The notes beneath the pieces were generated by a model. It was not told where the DNA came from. It worked only from the letters and a program-made list of their open reading frames with translations, and did no database searches. 64,000 nucleotides of DNA from Galdieria sulphuraria (taxonomy: Eukaryota > Rhodophyta > Bangiophyceae > Galdieriales > Galdieriaceae). Made by a program: the position numbers and the translations under genes. Numbering within the stretch: the stretch's first letter is position 1; every line of letters starts with the position of its first letter. The stretch covers positions 44,071 through 108,070 of the forward strand of contig NW_005178423.1 of NCBI RefSeq assembly GCF_000341285.1, given 5' to 3'. Below are positions 1,665 to 56,899 of the stretch, piece after piece.

Positions 1665-3599
1665 TTAAGAAACATGATTTGCTACTAGTTCAGTATCATG
1701 AAGACTAAACTTTGGAACAACATCGTCAAACAGGCGGAAGATATCTCCGGCAACGTAGTCGTTATCAACCACATTTACCAACATAAAGTTGTCGTGAATA
1801 TGACGTAAAATTTGCTGACTTGTGGAATCTTTCTCATAAAGTCGACCCCACAATTCTGTCCATATTGAAAATGCTTCTTCTTTCCATACCAAAAAACTGT
1901 AAGGATCAACAACAGTTGGTTGTATGATTTCCCTGTCAGGAAACACACCCCATGTTACAGCATTAGCACTGGACAAATTTTTGGTATTGGTTAATAATTC
2001 GCTGTCTTTAGAACTAACAGCAAATATTGTAATCAAAGGATACGACTTGGAGGCTTCTATCAGAGCTTCAACTACCTCTCTCTTAGCAAAGAACTCAATA
2101 TATGCTTTTTGATAAACATAACCTCCTGGTCCTCCCCATCCAAATACAATATCGCTAGAAGGAACTCCATTGACTCGTGGTTGAGAATTAATAGTAAATA
2201 ATCCGTGCTTGTTCAACCATTTCAGCGGTTCCATAATTATCATAGTTTCCTTTGCCAAACCATCCGATTCACTCCATAAAAGTCGACTTACTTCACCACT
2301 CAGGTATCGAAGAAATATATTGGAAACGTCCGAAAAATTTTTCAACTCTCCATAGGCCCTATGCAAGGCTTCCTTTTCCTCTTTGGAACGAAAACCGCCG
2401 CTTCCCAACAGATGGTGCTCCGTAAGTTCTCCAAAAGCAGGTGAACGATTGTCACCCCAGCGACCATTTGGAAACTCATCCCAACCTTCCGTTCTTGAAA
2501 TATACGACTTTGGACGGTTGGACCAAAAGATTGGTCGAACATCTTCATGTCTACGACGATCAATAGTAGCAGGTCTCCATGGTAAAGAACGAATGGATTG
2601 ATTCTTAGGAATCATATCTAGGCCTTCAATAATGGACATAACAGCCTTTTCAAGATTTAACGTGTAAAAATGAATACCAGGTACAAGACCACTGTGCAGT
2701 ATCCTTCGACACATATCTATTCCCAGTCGAATACCAAACTCTTTTACAGCTGCATCATCATCCTTGATAGGCTGTAATGCTTTCAAAACTTCGTCCGGCA
2801 CATGAGTCTTACAGAATTTTGTCATTCTTTCAAAACCATTGTAGTTCTGGATAGGCAATATTCCAGGAATGATAGGTACCTCAATACCGATACTACGACA
2901 GTCTTTAACAAACTGCAGAAATCTATCTGTATCATAGAACATCTGCGTGATGATAAAGTTACCTCCTGCTTCCACTTTCTCTTTCAAGAAATGCAACTCC
3001 TGCTCGTAGGTCAAGTTGCCTTCAAGTAAGCCAGCAGGGTGACCTTCTGGATATCCAGCAACACATATACTAAAGTGTTCTCCAAAACTCTTACGTATAT
3101 GTCTTACAAGGTCTACAGCGTGTTCAAATCCTCCTTCGATGCTATGCCATTCCTCTCCTTTTGGAGGATCCCCTCGTAAAGCAACAATATTTCGTATTCC
3201 TCTTTCTTTCGCAGCATTGAGTGCGTCATCCACTTTCCCTGAAGGCATATTTGTGCAGGTCAAGTGCATACAAACATCTAAACCGAAATAGCGCTGAATG
3301 TTACCGCTGATTTCCAGTGTCAAGTCAGATGTTGAACCACCTGCACCCCAAGTCACGTCGACAAATAGTGGTTCTACTCGAGACATGCGGTCAATTCGAT
3401 CATAAAGGTTATCTACACCGGACTAGAAGAGGACAGTACGGGTAAGTCGTGATACTATAACAAAAACTGGGCAACTCACTGGAGTTTTGGGAGGAAAATA
3501 TTCAAAAGAGAAGAATATTTTTCCCATGTCCTGTCGATGTTTTATCTTCTCGTGTACTTTAGGAGTATCTCTCAAGTTTATGTCTCCTCGTGACGGCAT
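1665..3599 (-). CDS. MTHFR: Methylenetetrahydrofolate reductase
   Basis: Two exons, 3599-3480 and 3422-1665, joined across a 57-nt GT-AG intron, give 625 residues. The enzyme reduces 5,10-methylene-THF to 5-methyl-THF for methionine synthesis. Seen: exon 1 ends in FFSFEYFPPKTP, and exon 2 continues with the DVTWGAGGSTSD and HLTCTNM stretches of the FAD-binding TIM barrel, then NIVALRGDPPKG, CVAGYPEGHP and IITQMFYD. After about residue 340 comes the eukaryotic C-terminal module (FGWGGPGGYVYQKAY), so the length matches eukaryotic rather than bacterial MetF. The start at 3599 is the first ATG in frame and gives a short leader with no clear targeting signal, so a cytosolic location is likely. Whether it is inhibited by S-adenosylmethionine cannot be judged here. 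Confidence 0.95.
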
Positions 3600-38535: not shown

Positions 38536-41500
38536 CTACATTCTTGATGCTCTATCGAATGTAGTGACTTCATAAAGAGCAGCAGCGCCCATCCCTGAGC
38601 CGATACACATGGAAACCACGCCATAACGTCCACCTCTACGATGAAGTTCATTCAACAAAGAAACAGTTTGACGGGCACCTGTGACAAAGACAAGCATTCA
38701 AACCGACATTCGCTATTAAAAAAATAGAATTATCTCACCTGTCATTCCTAAAGGATGACCAATAGCAATGGCACCACCATTTACATTCACTATATCCCGA
38801 TTGATTCCCAATACAGCTATACTGTATTCCGCTTGGGAACCAAAAGCTTCATTAATTTCATACAAATCAATGTCATTTACTGCCAAACCGGTCTTCTTCA
38901 ACAAGGCTGGAATGGCAACAGCAGGACCAATTCCCATAACACTTGGTTCCTAAAAACATACACTTCATAAGAAGCCAAACAAAATGCATAGAAATCCAAT
39001 TTTTCACTCACCACTCCAACAACTGCAAAAGCTCGAAGGGTACCAAGACAACCAAGTCCTCGTTTCTGTGCTTCCGAACGTTTCATGAGTAAGACAGCTG
39101 CTGCTCCATCACTAATTTGTGAAGCATTGCCTGGAGTTGTGGAGCCTTCTTTTCTGAATACGGGTTTCAACTTTGCTAATGAGGACATAGTAACTCCCAA
39201 ACGAATACCTTCGTCCTTGTCCACTACAACTTCTCTTTCAACCATCTTCGAAGCTTTATCCTTTGGATTCTCAGGCATCTTTACTTTGGTTTTGATGGGA
39301 ACTATTTCACCGCGTTGCTTCCCAGATAACATTGCTGCTGCAGCTCTTGCATGGCTTACAACAGCTAGTCGATCTTGTCGCTCTCTCGAAATGCCATATC
39401 TAGCGGCTACATTCTCTGATGTTTCGCCCATTGATAGATAACAGTCCGCCGCATTACCACCTACACGTAAAACTTCTGGATGTTTCTTTAAAGAATTATC
39501 ATGAAAAGCATGAGTACTCATGCTTTCCACTCCTCCAGCAATGGCAATATCATAATCACCCCTTGTGATAGCAGCTGCAGCATCTGCAATGGCTTGCAAA
39601 CCTGAAGAACAAAGTCGATTTACTGTTTTGCAAGGTGTTGATTCAGGAATTCCAGCAAGAAAGTTTGCACTTCGAAGTTGTACTTCGCCATGGTCACCTC
39701 TAGGTAAAACCTATAAATAAGAAGAGACCGTGAGCGGCAACCATATCAGCACATATCAAAACATGCATTTACTTACCATTCCCATCACAACATCTTGAAT
39801 ATCCTTTGGATTGATCTTGGTGTCTTCCAATAAACGCTGCATTATGGGACGAATAAGGTCTTCCATTGGAGTATCCTTAAACCCACCTCTGTATGCCTTC
39901 CCTACAGCCGTTCGGAAACCTGAAACAATTACCACATCATCATCGCCTCCCATATATCGAGGAGGCCTTGGAGGACGTTCCAACGGTGCATTTAACATTG
40001 CAGCTCGAACCAGTGCAAATGATGGAGCAAACATAGGACAGTTTCCTGTAGCACGATAAAGATAATCAAGTCTCTTCAAAATGGCTCCTGAATGACCAAA
40101 CTGGGATTGAGCCCAAAACATGATTCCGCCCTTATATGCAGGAAAGCCCATTCCAAGAACACTAGCAATATCCAGATCACTGGCTCGTTGTGAAATACCT
40201 TCTTCTAAAACTCTCATTCCTTCGTTAACTACAGGGAGAATCAACATGTCAATAATATCGTTGTCTTTAATATTTTGAATAAAACTCTGTTCGGGAGCTC
40301 GGATATCCAATTTGGAAGCAGTTTGTCTCACTTCTTTTGAGGCAGCTTCAATAAAGGACTTCACAGACTCTTCGTCCTTTTGAGGTTGTCTCGACTGACT
40401 AGAATAACGATAAAAACCTGCTCCAGACTTTTGTCCTTTGCGACCTTTCTCAATCATACTCTGTGTTCATTATAAGTATTCAAATATCTGAAAAATAAGC
40501 AAAACACGCACTTTCAGTAATGATGAACGGAATACTCTGTCCGCATATGCAACCTCAGCTACTCCTCCAACTGCAACACTGACATCAAAGCCAACCAAAT
40601 CTCTCAACTTGAATGGTCCCATCGGTAAACCAAACTCTTCTGCAACTTGATCAATTCTATACATAAAAAGTCGAGTTACATAAACAAATAACAAAATGGA
40701 ACATCTCTACCTATAGGGACATAAACCAAGATATGTAACGAGAATATCAGAAACGTTCGACTGCGGGAAATACATTCGATTGACAGCAAACCCAACACAA
40801 TTGCCAACTACGATAGGAGTCTTTCCCATTTTCTTACCCAACGTTACCAAGTCTTGAATAACTCTAGCAGATGTTCGATTGATACTTTTGAACATGGCAT
40901 AATTAATCATATCCACTACATTTTGGAACATGAACTTACCGAACAATTTCCAACAACTGCATTATATGCGCTGGAGAAAAGAAATGGGCACCAACAACCC
41001 GACCTTCCTCAGTTGCCTTTGGACAAGCAGTAGCTATCAAATCAATATCGATAGAAGATGTATTGGTTGCAAGTATACAGTCGGGCTTTACTAACTTTCC
41101 AAGAGTGGCAAATATTTCCTGCTTTAGTCTCACATCTTCGATAGCAGCCTCAATAACCAAATCAACATCACGGAACTTATCGTCAAATTCAGTGGTAACT
41201 GTAAGAATCCGCTTTGCGTTATTCAATGCTTCTTGAGATAACTTGGAGCGTTTACGAAAAGATTCCAAGTTAGCCTCGATACGCGTGCGAGCTGCCTTTG
41301 CAAATTGTTCATCCACTTCTTTTACTACAACCGGAATTCCACATGCAAGAATCGATGTGGCTATTCCACTTCCCATTAAGCCACCTCCAACAACTGCACA
41401 TTTCTTCGGAAGTTTGCCTTTGTATTCCGTAGAAACTCCAGGAATAGCATCCAACTTGCTTGTTGCTCGAGTAGCGAAAAATACATGAATGAGTGACTTG

Positions 41501-42545
41501 GCTGTAGGCGAAGATACCAGTTCACGAAACTTTCGCCTCTCATACTTACACATACAAGTCAACAAATGTTCCAGATGTGAGCAAATGAGACTTACTTGTA
41601 AACCTGCTTCACCTCCATTTCGAACACCGTACATGATAGTTTCCAAACATTCTTGATATTGTGGTTGTCCTTTTATCATTTTACTCTTGCTCAATTCCGA
41701 CCTTGCAAACTGCTCTATCTTATTCCATTGTTCAGGTGAGCCTAGTTTGTCTGTTCTTTTCAGATGATTCTTCCTTTCTCTCAGTCCTTGAGCTATTTCC
41801 AAAGCAACTTTCTTAGCAGTGGCCAGCAACTCTTCTTCTCCATCAACTAGCGCGGCCAATAAACCAAGCTTATTGGCTTCTTGACCCTTTAAAACCTTTG
41901 TCTGAAGCATAACAGGTAAGGCTGCTTCCAGTCCAATAACTCTTGGCAATCTTTGGGTACCACCCAACCCTGGAATAAGACCTAAGCCAATACGTTACCC
42001 ATCCTGTCAACACAACAAACAACCGAGTAGACCATACCAATTCGTAGCTCTGGTAATGTAAAACTAGCACGTTTTGTACCCACACGTTCTTGACAGCAGA
42101 GAATCATTTCCAAACCACCACCAAAAGCCACCCCATTGATGGCTGCGACTGTTGGTTTCGAACCTTCTTCCAACATTTGAAATATATGAGCCTTTACTTC
42201 CACATCTTTAGGACTTGCTTTAGGGTCATATAAAGCAGCAAACTCTGTAATGTCGGCTCCACCAGAGAAAACACCATTCTTTCCAAACAGAACGATTGCT
42301 TTCACATCAGGCCTCTCATATGCCTAAGGCAGTTGTTCAGTGGGAGTATGACAGATAACGTTCAAACCAACTTGTTTCAATTTTTCAAAGAGAGACTGAG
42401 AAAGAGGATTGGAAAGGGCGTTGACAGGCGGGTTGGAAAAGGAAATCTATCAAAGTTATCTCAAAGAACAAAGACTTTTAAGTACTCATACCAGAGCAAC
42501 ACCTTGGTTATCTACGTTCAACTCTACACTCCAACCAGACTGCAT
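38536..42545 (-). CDS. Trifunctional beta-oxidation fusion: enoyl-CoA hydratase/3-hydroxyacyl-CoA dehydrogenase/3-ketoacyl-CoA thiolase
   Basis: Eleven exons: 42545-42492, 42446-42372, 42323-42038, 41981-41596, 41544-40940, 40884-40711, 40656-40512, 40460-39777, 39710-39012, 38949-38739, 38678-38536. All junctions keep frame, giving 1,153 residues. Residues ~1-190 are a crotonase fold (SGGADITEF; Glu115 in GGGLEM and Glu135 in LPELRIGLIPG). Residues ~310-730 are the dehydrogenase ([10 protein letters not shown] near 320; His454 in [19 protein letters not shown]; second helical half with [10 protein letters not shown]). A Pro/Arg linker ([15 protein letters not shown]) leads at ~750 into a full thiolase: Cys837 in [40 protein letters not shown]. 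The last residues are SRM, a plant-type PTS1, suggesting peroxisomes. Known: multifunctional protein and thiolase are normally separate polypeptides (FadB and FadA). The order here equals the fadBA operon order. Confidence 0.9.
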
Positions 42546-43694: not shown

Positions 43695-44833
43695 ATGAAT
43701 GAAGAAATATCTGCTGATAATCCTTACAGTAGACTAGTAGCGTTAAAGAAGCTCGGTGTTGTGCAGAATTTTGACGAAATTAGAAAGTTTTCGATAGCTG
43801 TGGTAGGTTTAGGCGGCGTGGGTAGTGTGGCTGCGGAAATGCTTGTTCGCTGTGGTATTGGAAAGCTCGTTCTTTTTGATTATGACACAGTTGAGTTGGC
43901 AAACATGAATCGACTTTTTTATAAACCAGAACAACGAGGCAAAACAAAGGTACAAGCAGCAAAGGAAACTTTGGAAGCAATTAACCCAGATGTCGTTGTT
44001 GACGGTTATCACTTTGATATTACTTCGGTTAGAAGCTATGATAAATTTGTACAAGTATTAAAAACTGGTTCAACGGGTGAGTTAAATAGCATGGATTTAA
44101 TGAACACTCTGATTATGTTTTTTGTTTAGATGAAGCTTCTGCTGTCCATCTCGTGTTGAGTTGTGTGGATAACTACAACGCTAGAAGTACCATCAATATG
44201 GTTTGCAATGAATTAAGATTGACCTGGTTTGAAAGTGGTGTTTCAGAAGATGCTCTTAATGGTCACGTGCAGTTCATAGTTCCTGGAGTCTTTGCTTGTT
44301 ATAGTTGTGTCCCTCCTCTTTTAGTTGCTTCAGGTGTGGATGAGTCCACGTTGAAGAGAGAAGGAGTATGTGCAGCCTCTTTACCAACTACTATGGGAAT
44401 CATTGCAGGTTTATTGGTTCAAAATAGTTTGAAATATCTCTTAGGGTTTGGTCAAGTATCCAATTACATCGGTTACAATGCATGGACTGACTATTTTTCA
44501 ACGATGACCGTGAAGCCAAACGATTCATGTCCCGATCCTAATTGTTTGCATTGGCAAAGAGTTTATCAAATGGAACAACAAAATAAGCAAGCATTAGAGG
44601 AACCTGATAAAACGAGTCATTCCAATGTGGAAAATCCCGTCGTCCATCAAGATAATGAATGGTCTATTCAAGTAGTTGATGATGGTTTCGAGATTGAAGA
44701 GCAGCTTTCACATGTGAAGGAAGACAAGAAGAAAGTATTGGAAGAACAGACTGGTGAGTCATACGCTTATTCACTTTCAGAGGAAAGCTTAGAAACGCAA
44801 CAACTTGTAAAGCAATTGCGTTCCATGCGATGA
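43695..44833 (+). CDS. UBA5: UFM1-activating enzyme E1
   Basis: Two exons, 43695-44076 and 44130-44833, with a 53-nt intron, give 361 residues. It adenylates UFM1 and passes it to the E2 UFC1. Seen: [36 protein letters not shown] (ATP site), LANMNRLFY, the zinc Cys pairs CYSCVPP and CPDPNCLHW, and [17 protein letters not shown] with the catalytic Cys at residue 208. The tail has [11 protein letters not shown], which matches the UFM1/ATG8-interacting motif of human UBA5, and a C-terminal helix ([13 protein letters not shown]) where UFC1 binds. So the regulatory tail as well as the core is retained. UFL1 of the same pathway is at 11.6-14.1 kb. Confidence 0.95.

Positions 44834-46758: not shown

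Positions 46759-51267
<4,509 letters not shown>

Positions 51268-55733: not shown

Positions 55734-56899
<1,166 letters not shown>

Follow-up and report, generated by a model that had tools for sequence, protein, structure and literature searches.

Enzymes uniting three steps of beta-oxidation in one polypeptide have been described in red algae. Using Pfam, a chain with successive ECH, HAD and thiolase domains was found in 2016 in Cyanidioschyzon merolae (CMR380C) and Porphyridium purpureum (PMC4928187; this paper and the others cited here are used as far as the part of their text available to us goes). The three-domain chain was called a likely red-algal feature, and three successive reactions were suggested for it (PMC4928187). 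The gene considered here belongs to the red alga Galdieria sulphuraria and is located on the minus strand, at positions 42545-38536 of a stretch of 64,000 nucleotides of contig NW_005178423.1, called the window hereafter. It is a further member of the red-algal three-domain multifunctional protein (MFP) class, known since 2016. An earlier note on this DNA knew of no description of the fusion, whose novelty is overturned by the report of the same kind of protein in two red algae. The new elements are a counted switch of peroxisomal targeting signals (PTS) and a wider distribution of the fusion; no discussion of the effect of the fusion on targeting signals was found in the available part of PMC4928187.

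The product of the gene is very probably a trifunctional beta-oxidation enzyme of the peroxisome, belonging to the kind already known from red algae. Such an enzyme would consist of a plant-type MFP, including 2-enoyl-CoA hydratase and 3-hydroxyacyl-CoA dehydrogenase, followed by a short linker and then by a peroxisomal-type 3-ketoacyl-CoA thiolase (KAT). Enoyl-CoA supplied by acyl-CoA oxidase would be hydrated, oxidised and thiolytically cleaved by one chain, which PEX5 would take into the peroxisome via the C-terminal tripeptide SRM. As judged from the sequence, the complete three-step fusion enzyme is real, whereas catalysis, peroxisomal location and channelling between the sites are features that we infer from it.

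Once spliced, the eleven exons form a single open frame of 1,153 amino acids ending with SRM, and the ten introns, 45-66 nt in size, are all of the GT..AG type. The protein P0001, whose source label Galph1/Gphleg is taken as Galdieria phlegrea, also has 1,153 residues and aligns to the fusion protein without any gap, with 80% identity over the MFP half and 90% over the thiolase part. Exon 1 (42492..42545) opens with the ATG at 42545 and is followed by exon 2 (42372..42446), whose donor, GTTGGT, was fixed by splicing and by comparison with P0001. A donor for intron 2 lying 12 nt downstream, leading to 1,157 amino acids, was rejected because it adds four residues, near position 44, without counterpart in P0001. 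The 1,157-residue version was used for the searches for relatives and structures, for Pfam, for the MFP-half queries and for the query row of the MFP-half tree. Exons 4 (41596..41981), 6 (40711..40884) and 7 (40512..40656) were placed by splicing. The eleven exons, single frame and roughly 1,153 residues announced in the earlier note are thus borne out by the corrected splicing and the gapless match to P0001.

The Pfam domains, all above cut-offs, are ordered ECH_1, 3HCDH_N, 3HCDH, Thiolase_N and Thiolase_C. By sequence, the closest solved relatives are Arabidopsis MFP2 (2wtb) over residues 9-730 and Arabidopsis KAT2 (2c7y) over residues 752-1147, in the 1,157-residue numbering. Alignments place Glu115 (codon at 42110) and Glu135 (42050) of the hydratase in exon 3 (42038..42323), while exon 5 (40940..41544) carries the NAD-binding stretch GGGLMGSG from residue 320 (Pfam) and His454 (40986) and Glu466 (40950) of the dehydrogenase. 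The thiolase nucleophile Cys837 (codon at 39611) belongs to exon 9 (39012..39710), Asn1069 of the NEAF motif (38853) and His1101 of the GHPLG motif (38757) to exon 10 (38739..38949), and Cys1131 (38607) to exon 11 (38536..38678), which ends with SRM (38539..38547) and the stop codon. We take E115/E135, H454/E466 and C837/N1069/H1101/C1131 to be the catalytic residues of the hydratase, dehydrogenase and thiolase families, respectively. These eight residues of the fusion protein are invariant in 30/30 aligned fused relatives, picked from the 71 fusions presented below, and the positions are also conserved in alignments with 2wtb and 2c7y. Indeed, the MFP half carries the two hydratase Glu and the dehydrogenase His-Glu pair, as in plant-type peroxisomal MFP (MFE1), and the thiolase half carries the Cys-Asn-His-Cys set of the CIGxGMG type, as in peroxisomal KAT. 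The claim of a single chain with full catalytic sets for the three steps is therefore upheld by the Pfam domains and the conserved residues.

An AlphaFold model of P0001, computed with 30 fused sequences as input, has a mean predicted local distance difference test (pLDDT) of 88.3 and a predicted template modelling score (pTM) of 0.88. The pLDDT is 80 at residues 731-740, 84 at residues 741-750 and below 50 at residues 1149-1153. As read from the high pTM of this monomer model over both halves, the halves may adopt a fixed packing and the tail may be exposed. Thiolases of the KAT kind are dimers. In Foldseek, 2wtb ranked first, and the 50 matches listed were all MFP-type chains.

Three protein searches, each yielding at most its best 120 matches, listed 307 different proteins, which were counted as fused when more than 400 MFP positions and more than 300 KAT positions were covered. 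At least 71 of the 307 listed proteins are fused, KAT following MFP in 71/71, and four others are partial; 71 is a lower bound because each list holds at most the best 120. Among these 71 listed fusions, 62 are of the red type and nine are non-red. A red-algal source name accompanies eight of the 62 (P0001, Porphyridium purpureum, an MMETSP entry beginning Porphyrid, Hildenbrandia, Agarophyton, Timspurckia, Chondrus and Pyropia), the remaining red-type rows being classed by similarity. The non-red fusions are P0069, P0070, P0071, P0074, P0076, P0078, P0082, P0086 and P0088, one of them named Balamuthia mandrillaris; the prefix of P0082 presumably stands for Andalucia godoyi and that of P0086 for Cyanophora paradoxa. 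The fusion is thus extended from two species in print to a wider red-algal set and beyond red algae.

In trees including 14 of the 62 red fused rows plus the Galdieria protein, the red fused rows form one clade, supported at 100/99 in the KAT half and at 100/100 in the MFP half, with P0001 as the sister of the Galdieria protein. One single-half row stands inside the red clade in each tree: P0191 (KAT only), which begins within the linker, and P0153 (MFP only), which ends before the linker. Both were taken as truncated and counted with the fused rows in the approximately unbiased (AU) tests.

The fusion is accompanied by a change of targeting signals, which were searched as [SACGP][KRHNQ][LMI] for PTS1-like ends and R[LVIQ]xx[LVIHQ][LSGAK]x[HQ][LAF] for PTS2. 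In the listed proteins made of one half, 65/68 MFP-only members, mostly from land plants, end with a PTS1-like tripeptide. Such an end is found in two of the 164 listed KAT-only proteins, and a PTS2 motif occurs within the first 60 residues in 92 of the 116 listed KAT-only proteins of at most 520 amino acids. Because of the MFP-KAT order, both the C-terminal signal of MFP and the N-terminal PTS2 of the thiolase are buried in the chain. In the listed red-type fusions, a PTS1-like end is present in 59/62; when the last 12 residues of these 62 proteins were shuffled 2,000 times, such ends numbered 1.0 on average and never more than 7. The ends of 38/62 red-type fusions are among 48 tripeptides listed as validated PTS1 signals of plants (PMC3427985), those outside this list being AKM (13), GKL (7), AAL (2), CRM (1) and AML (1). 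The strict PTS2 motif was found in the first 60 residues of none of the 62 red-type fusions, some of which are N-terminally incomplete, at none of the six junctions inspected, and, read by eye, not at the N-terminus of the Galdieria protein.

The SRM end of the Galdieria protein is shared with P0026, P0027 and P0039. This tripeptide is the endogenous PTS1 of a tagged plant MFP (PMC1325227) and is among the validated plant PTS1 tripeptides (PMC3427985), which confirms its designation as a plant-type peroxisomal signal in the earlier note. The red-type exceptions to a PTS1-like end are P0060 (AML) and the pair P0063 and P0065 (AAL), both of which are probably Cyanidioschyzon-like because AAL is the end given for a C. 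merolae thiolase (PMC3178647). This AAL end would fit the non-peroxisomal location reported in C. merolae. Among the non-red fusions, a PTS1-like end was found in 0/9. Three of these nine (P0078, P0082 and P0088) display an N-terminal RRExxLxHL, which is PTS2-like and departs from the strict motif at position 2; the strict motif was found within the first 45 residues in 0/71 listed fusions.

Some observations made on C. merolae speak against a peroxisomal enzyme. Its equivalent was observed neither in peroxisomes, as tested with green fluorescent protein carrying its C-terminal peptide, nor in the peroxisome proteome (PMC4928187), so that a peroxisomal location is not assured for the whole class. 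Besides, the C. merolae thiolase is listed, without naming of the gene, with an AAL end (PMC3178647), compared with SRM here. A peroxisomal trifunctional enzyme remains the very probable identity of the Galdieria protein. As a natural covalent three-step beta-oxidation enzyme, it would provide a system for studying the transfer of acyl-CoA between active sites.

Thiolase is the best-known PTS2 cargo. PEX7 is absent in Galdieria sulphuraria (PMC8172628) and in C. merolae (PMC7710942, PMC3178647), and the mechanism of a PTS2-to-PTS1 cargo transition possibly contributed by a red alga was termed 'yet unknown' (PMC7710942). The fusion may tentatively be seen as the route by which the red-algal thiolase left PTS2 import, on the basis of a correlation only. 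Following this proposal, the joining of MFP and KAT would internalise the PTS1 of the former and the PTS2 of the latter, after which a new C-terminal PTS1 would bring all three activities in through PEX5. The classic PTS2 cargo would thereby be freed of its need for PEX7: with thiolase imported by PTS1 and PEX5, PEX7 would be dispensable for thiolase and could then be lost. If true, the proposal would answer, for the main cargo, the transition question of PMC7710942; it would also imply that the fusion is at least as old as the loss of PEX7 and that fused lineages retaining PEX7 use an N-terminal PTS2. The fusion thereby opens two questions to experiment: the reason for which some lineages give up the PTS2 pathway, and the first change undergone by thiolase in this process.

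Several published observations argue against such a role of the fusion in the exit from PTS2 import. Diatoms and C. elegans, without PEX7, have a thiolase listed with a PTS1, which makes a fusion unnecessary, and Naegleria keeps PEX7 yet has a thiolase with a PTS1 (PMC3178647). In C. merolae, which is devoid of PEX7, no peroxisomal signal could be detected on the fusion (PMC4928187). Finally, the PEX7 of stramenopiles was interpreted as derived from the engulfed red alga (PMC7710942), which would imply that some red algae possessed PEX7. In the open-licence literature, as far as its text was available, no link of the fusion to PTS2 loss and no fusion in protists were found, which is not proof of absence.

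The age of the fusion leaves room for an alternative. It is conceivable, if rather doubtful, that a single event in an early eukaryote predates red algae and was kept by these and by distant protists, the protein being split again in green plants. The nine non-red fused proteins, including the one named Balamuthia, are in line with such an event, and the AU test does not reject, for either half, the union of every fused row in one clade (p-AU 0.207 for KAT and 0.493 for MFP), although the trees give no support to this clade either. Nevertheless, the order of the deep branches is weakly supported, so that independent fusions fit equally well. In the KAT half, the nine non-red rows form no supported clade, even if their grouping is not rejected (p-AU 0.111). 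Moreover, the unfused MFP rows are almost all from plants, which filled the MFP hit list.

Concerning the source of the two halves, the fusion of two eukaryotic peroxisomal genes is favoured over operon capture. From the match of the domain order to the fadBA operon, the earlier note had suggested a fusion of neighbouring genes; a horizontal acquisition of a fused operon of this type from bacteria is most improbable. A dehydrogenase-containing open reading frame (ORF) followed by a thiolase ORF does occur at prokaryotic loci L020-L023, but the thiolase precedes the MFP ORF, which is the reverse of the fadBA order, at the gammaproteobacterial loci L026, L029 and L032. No ORF of at least 200 amino acids matching both halves was found in the 80 loci returned, out of 163 from relatives, by a scan of GTDB contigs seeded on six short peptides of P0001, a seed that distant fusions could escape. 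In the KAT tree, the thiolase half stands among eukaryotic KATs, all nine bacterial rows being apart (100/100). In the MFP tree, the red rows stand together with MFPs of the plant type and the remaining fused proteins, and are split from the bacterial rows with a support of only 88/97. In favour of bacteria, the first MFP tree placed rat MFE1, on a long branch, on the bacterial side, and therefore eukaryotic MFPs are not one group in this tree. For a second MFP tree, rat MFE1 was dropped along with four bacterial rows (L026, L029, L032 and L090), two rows from eukprot and one from a metagenome, so that a single bacterial outgroup remained. The fadBA origin is thus unsupported because no fused ORF was seen in the 80 prokaryotic loci and neither half is close to the bacterial rows, the halves grouping instead with eukaryotic KAT and plant-type MFP.

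The junction between the halves lies within exon 8 (39777..40460, 684 nt), which includes the end of the dehydrogenase, the linker and the start of the thiolase. The linker, delimited by splicing and comparison with relatives, covers residues about 731-747 (39945..39995), a region modelled in P0001 with a pLDDT of 80-84. One frame of exon 8 is open throughout, the other two having 13 stops each, and none of 5,000 base shuffles stayed open. The domain boundary was therefore rightly located inside exon 8 in the earlier note. An in-frame ATG at codon 745 (39951-39953, minus strand) directly precedes the thiolase core, so that internal initiation at this Met745 could additionally give rise to a short thiolase sharing the SRM end. 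That the locus instead yields two proteins, the fusion being merely apparent through an assembly error, separate transcripts or initiation at Met745, is very hard to believe: this Met is kept in P0001, but the same junction is found in the gapless P0001 and in at least 71 listed fusions, two of which bear transcriptome-assembly names (P0010, MMETSP; P0009, TRINITY, N-terminally incomplete), and the gene contains no N and exon 8 remains open through the junction.

Profile searches over the genome contigs (12.05 Mb, 102 contigs) located the fusion gene on contig C53. The thiolase N-domain was matched by 9/9 candidates, two of them in the fusion gene and others at C59, C20 and, weakly, C5, whereas 3HCDH_N was matched by 2/8 candidates, in the fusion gene and at C19. 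Matches were also obtained for 2/2 candidates of the ACOX family and 7/8 candidates of ECH_1. The thiolases of C59 and C20 have the active-site stretch CNGGGG, which we take to mark acetoacetyl-CoA thiolases. Therefore, among the thiolases inspected, those of C59, C20 and the fusion gene, the last seems to be the sole one of the KAT type, as well as the sole MFP found. In C. merolae, one mitochondrial set for beta-oxidation exists besides one extra-mitochondrial set (PMC4928187). By analogy, this picture of two sets may apply to Galdieria, with a peroxisomal second set.

Ordinary genes noted elsewhere in the window are a methylenetetrahydrofolate reductase at 1665-3422, an HSP90 gene at 46759-48645 and a galactose-1-phosphate uridylyltransferase at 55772-56614, all on the minus strand. 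A ThiF-family ORF is located at 44090-44833 on the plus strand and presumably encodes a UFM1-activating enzyme.

Compared with known systems, the closest are the red-algal three-domain MFPs of C. merolae and Porphyridium, with the same ECH, HAD and thiolase order in one chain from a red alga. CMR380C nevertheless differs, as neither a peroxisomal signal nor a peroxisomal location was observed for it (PMC4928187), whereas the Galdieria protein ends with SRM. Trifunctional enzymes of different make-up, as well as separate thiolases, are described for Guillardia (PMC9244630) and Euglenozoa (PMC9512073). Arabidopsis MFP2 (2wtb) and AIM1 are alignable to the first 730 residues and share the same catalytic residues and a PTS1-type signal. 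However, the plant MFP chain stops ahead of the thiolase, with its PTS1 after the dehydrogenase part, whereas the Galdieria chain continues into the thiolase. KAT, as in Arabidopsis KAT2 (2c7y/2wu9) and human ACAA1 (2iik), matches residues about 748-1143, with Cys, Asn, His and Cys kept, but it is a separate protein with an N-terminal PTS2 (the 92/116 listed above), the thiolase of Galdieria being fused. Finally, the bacterial FadB-FadA and mitochondrial trifunctional alpha-beta complexes (1wdk, 6dv2) unite the same three activities in separate chains of lower similarity, whereas Galdieria encodes them in a single reading frame.

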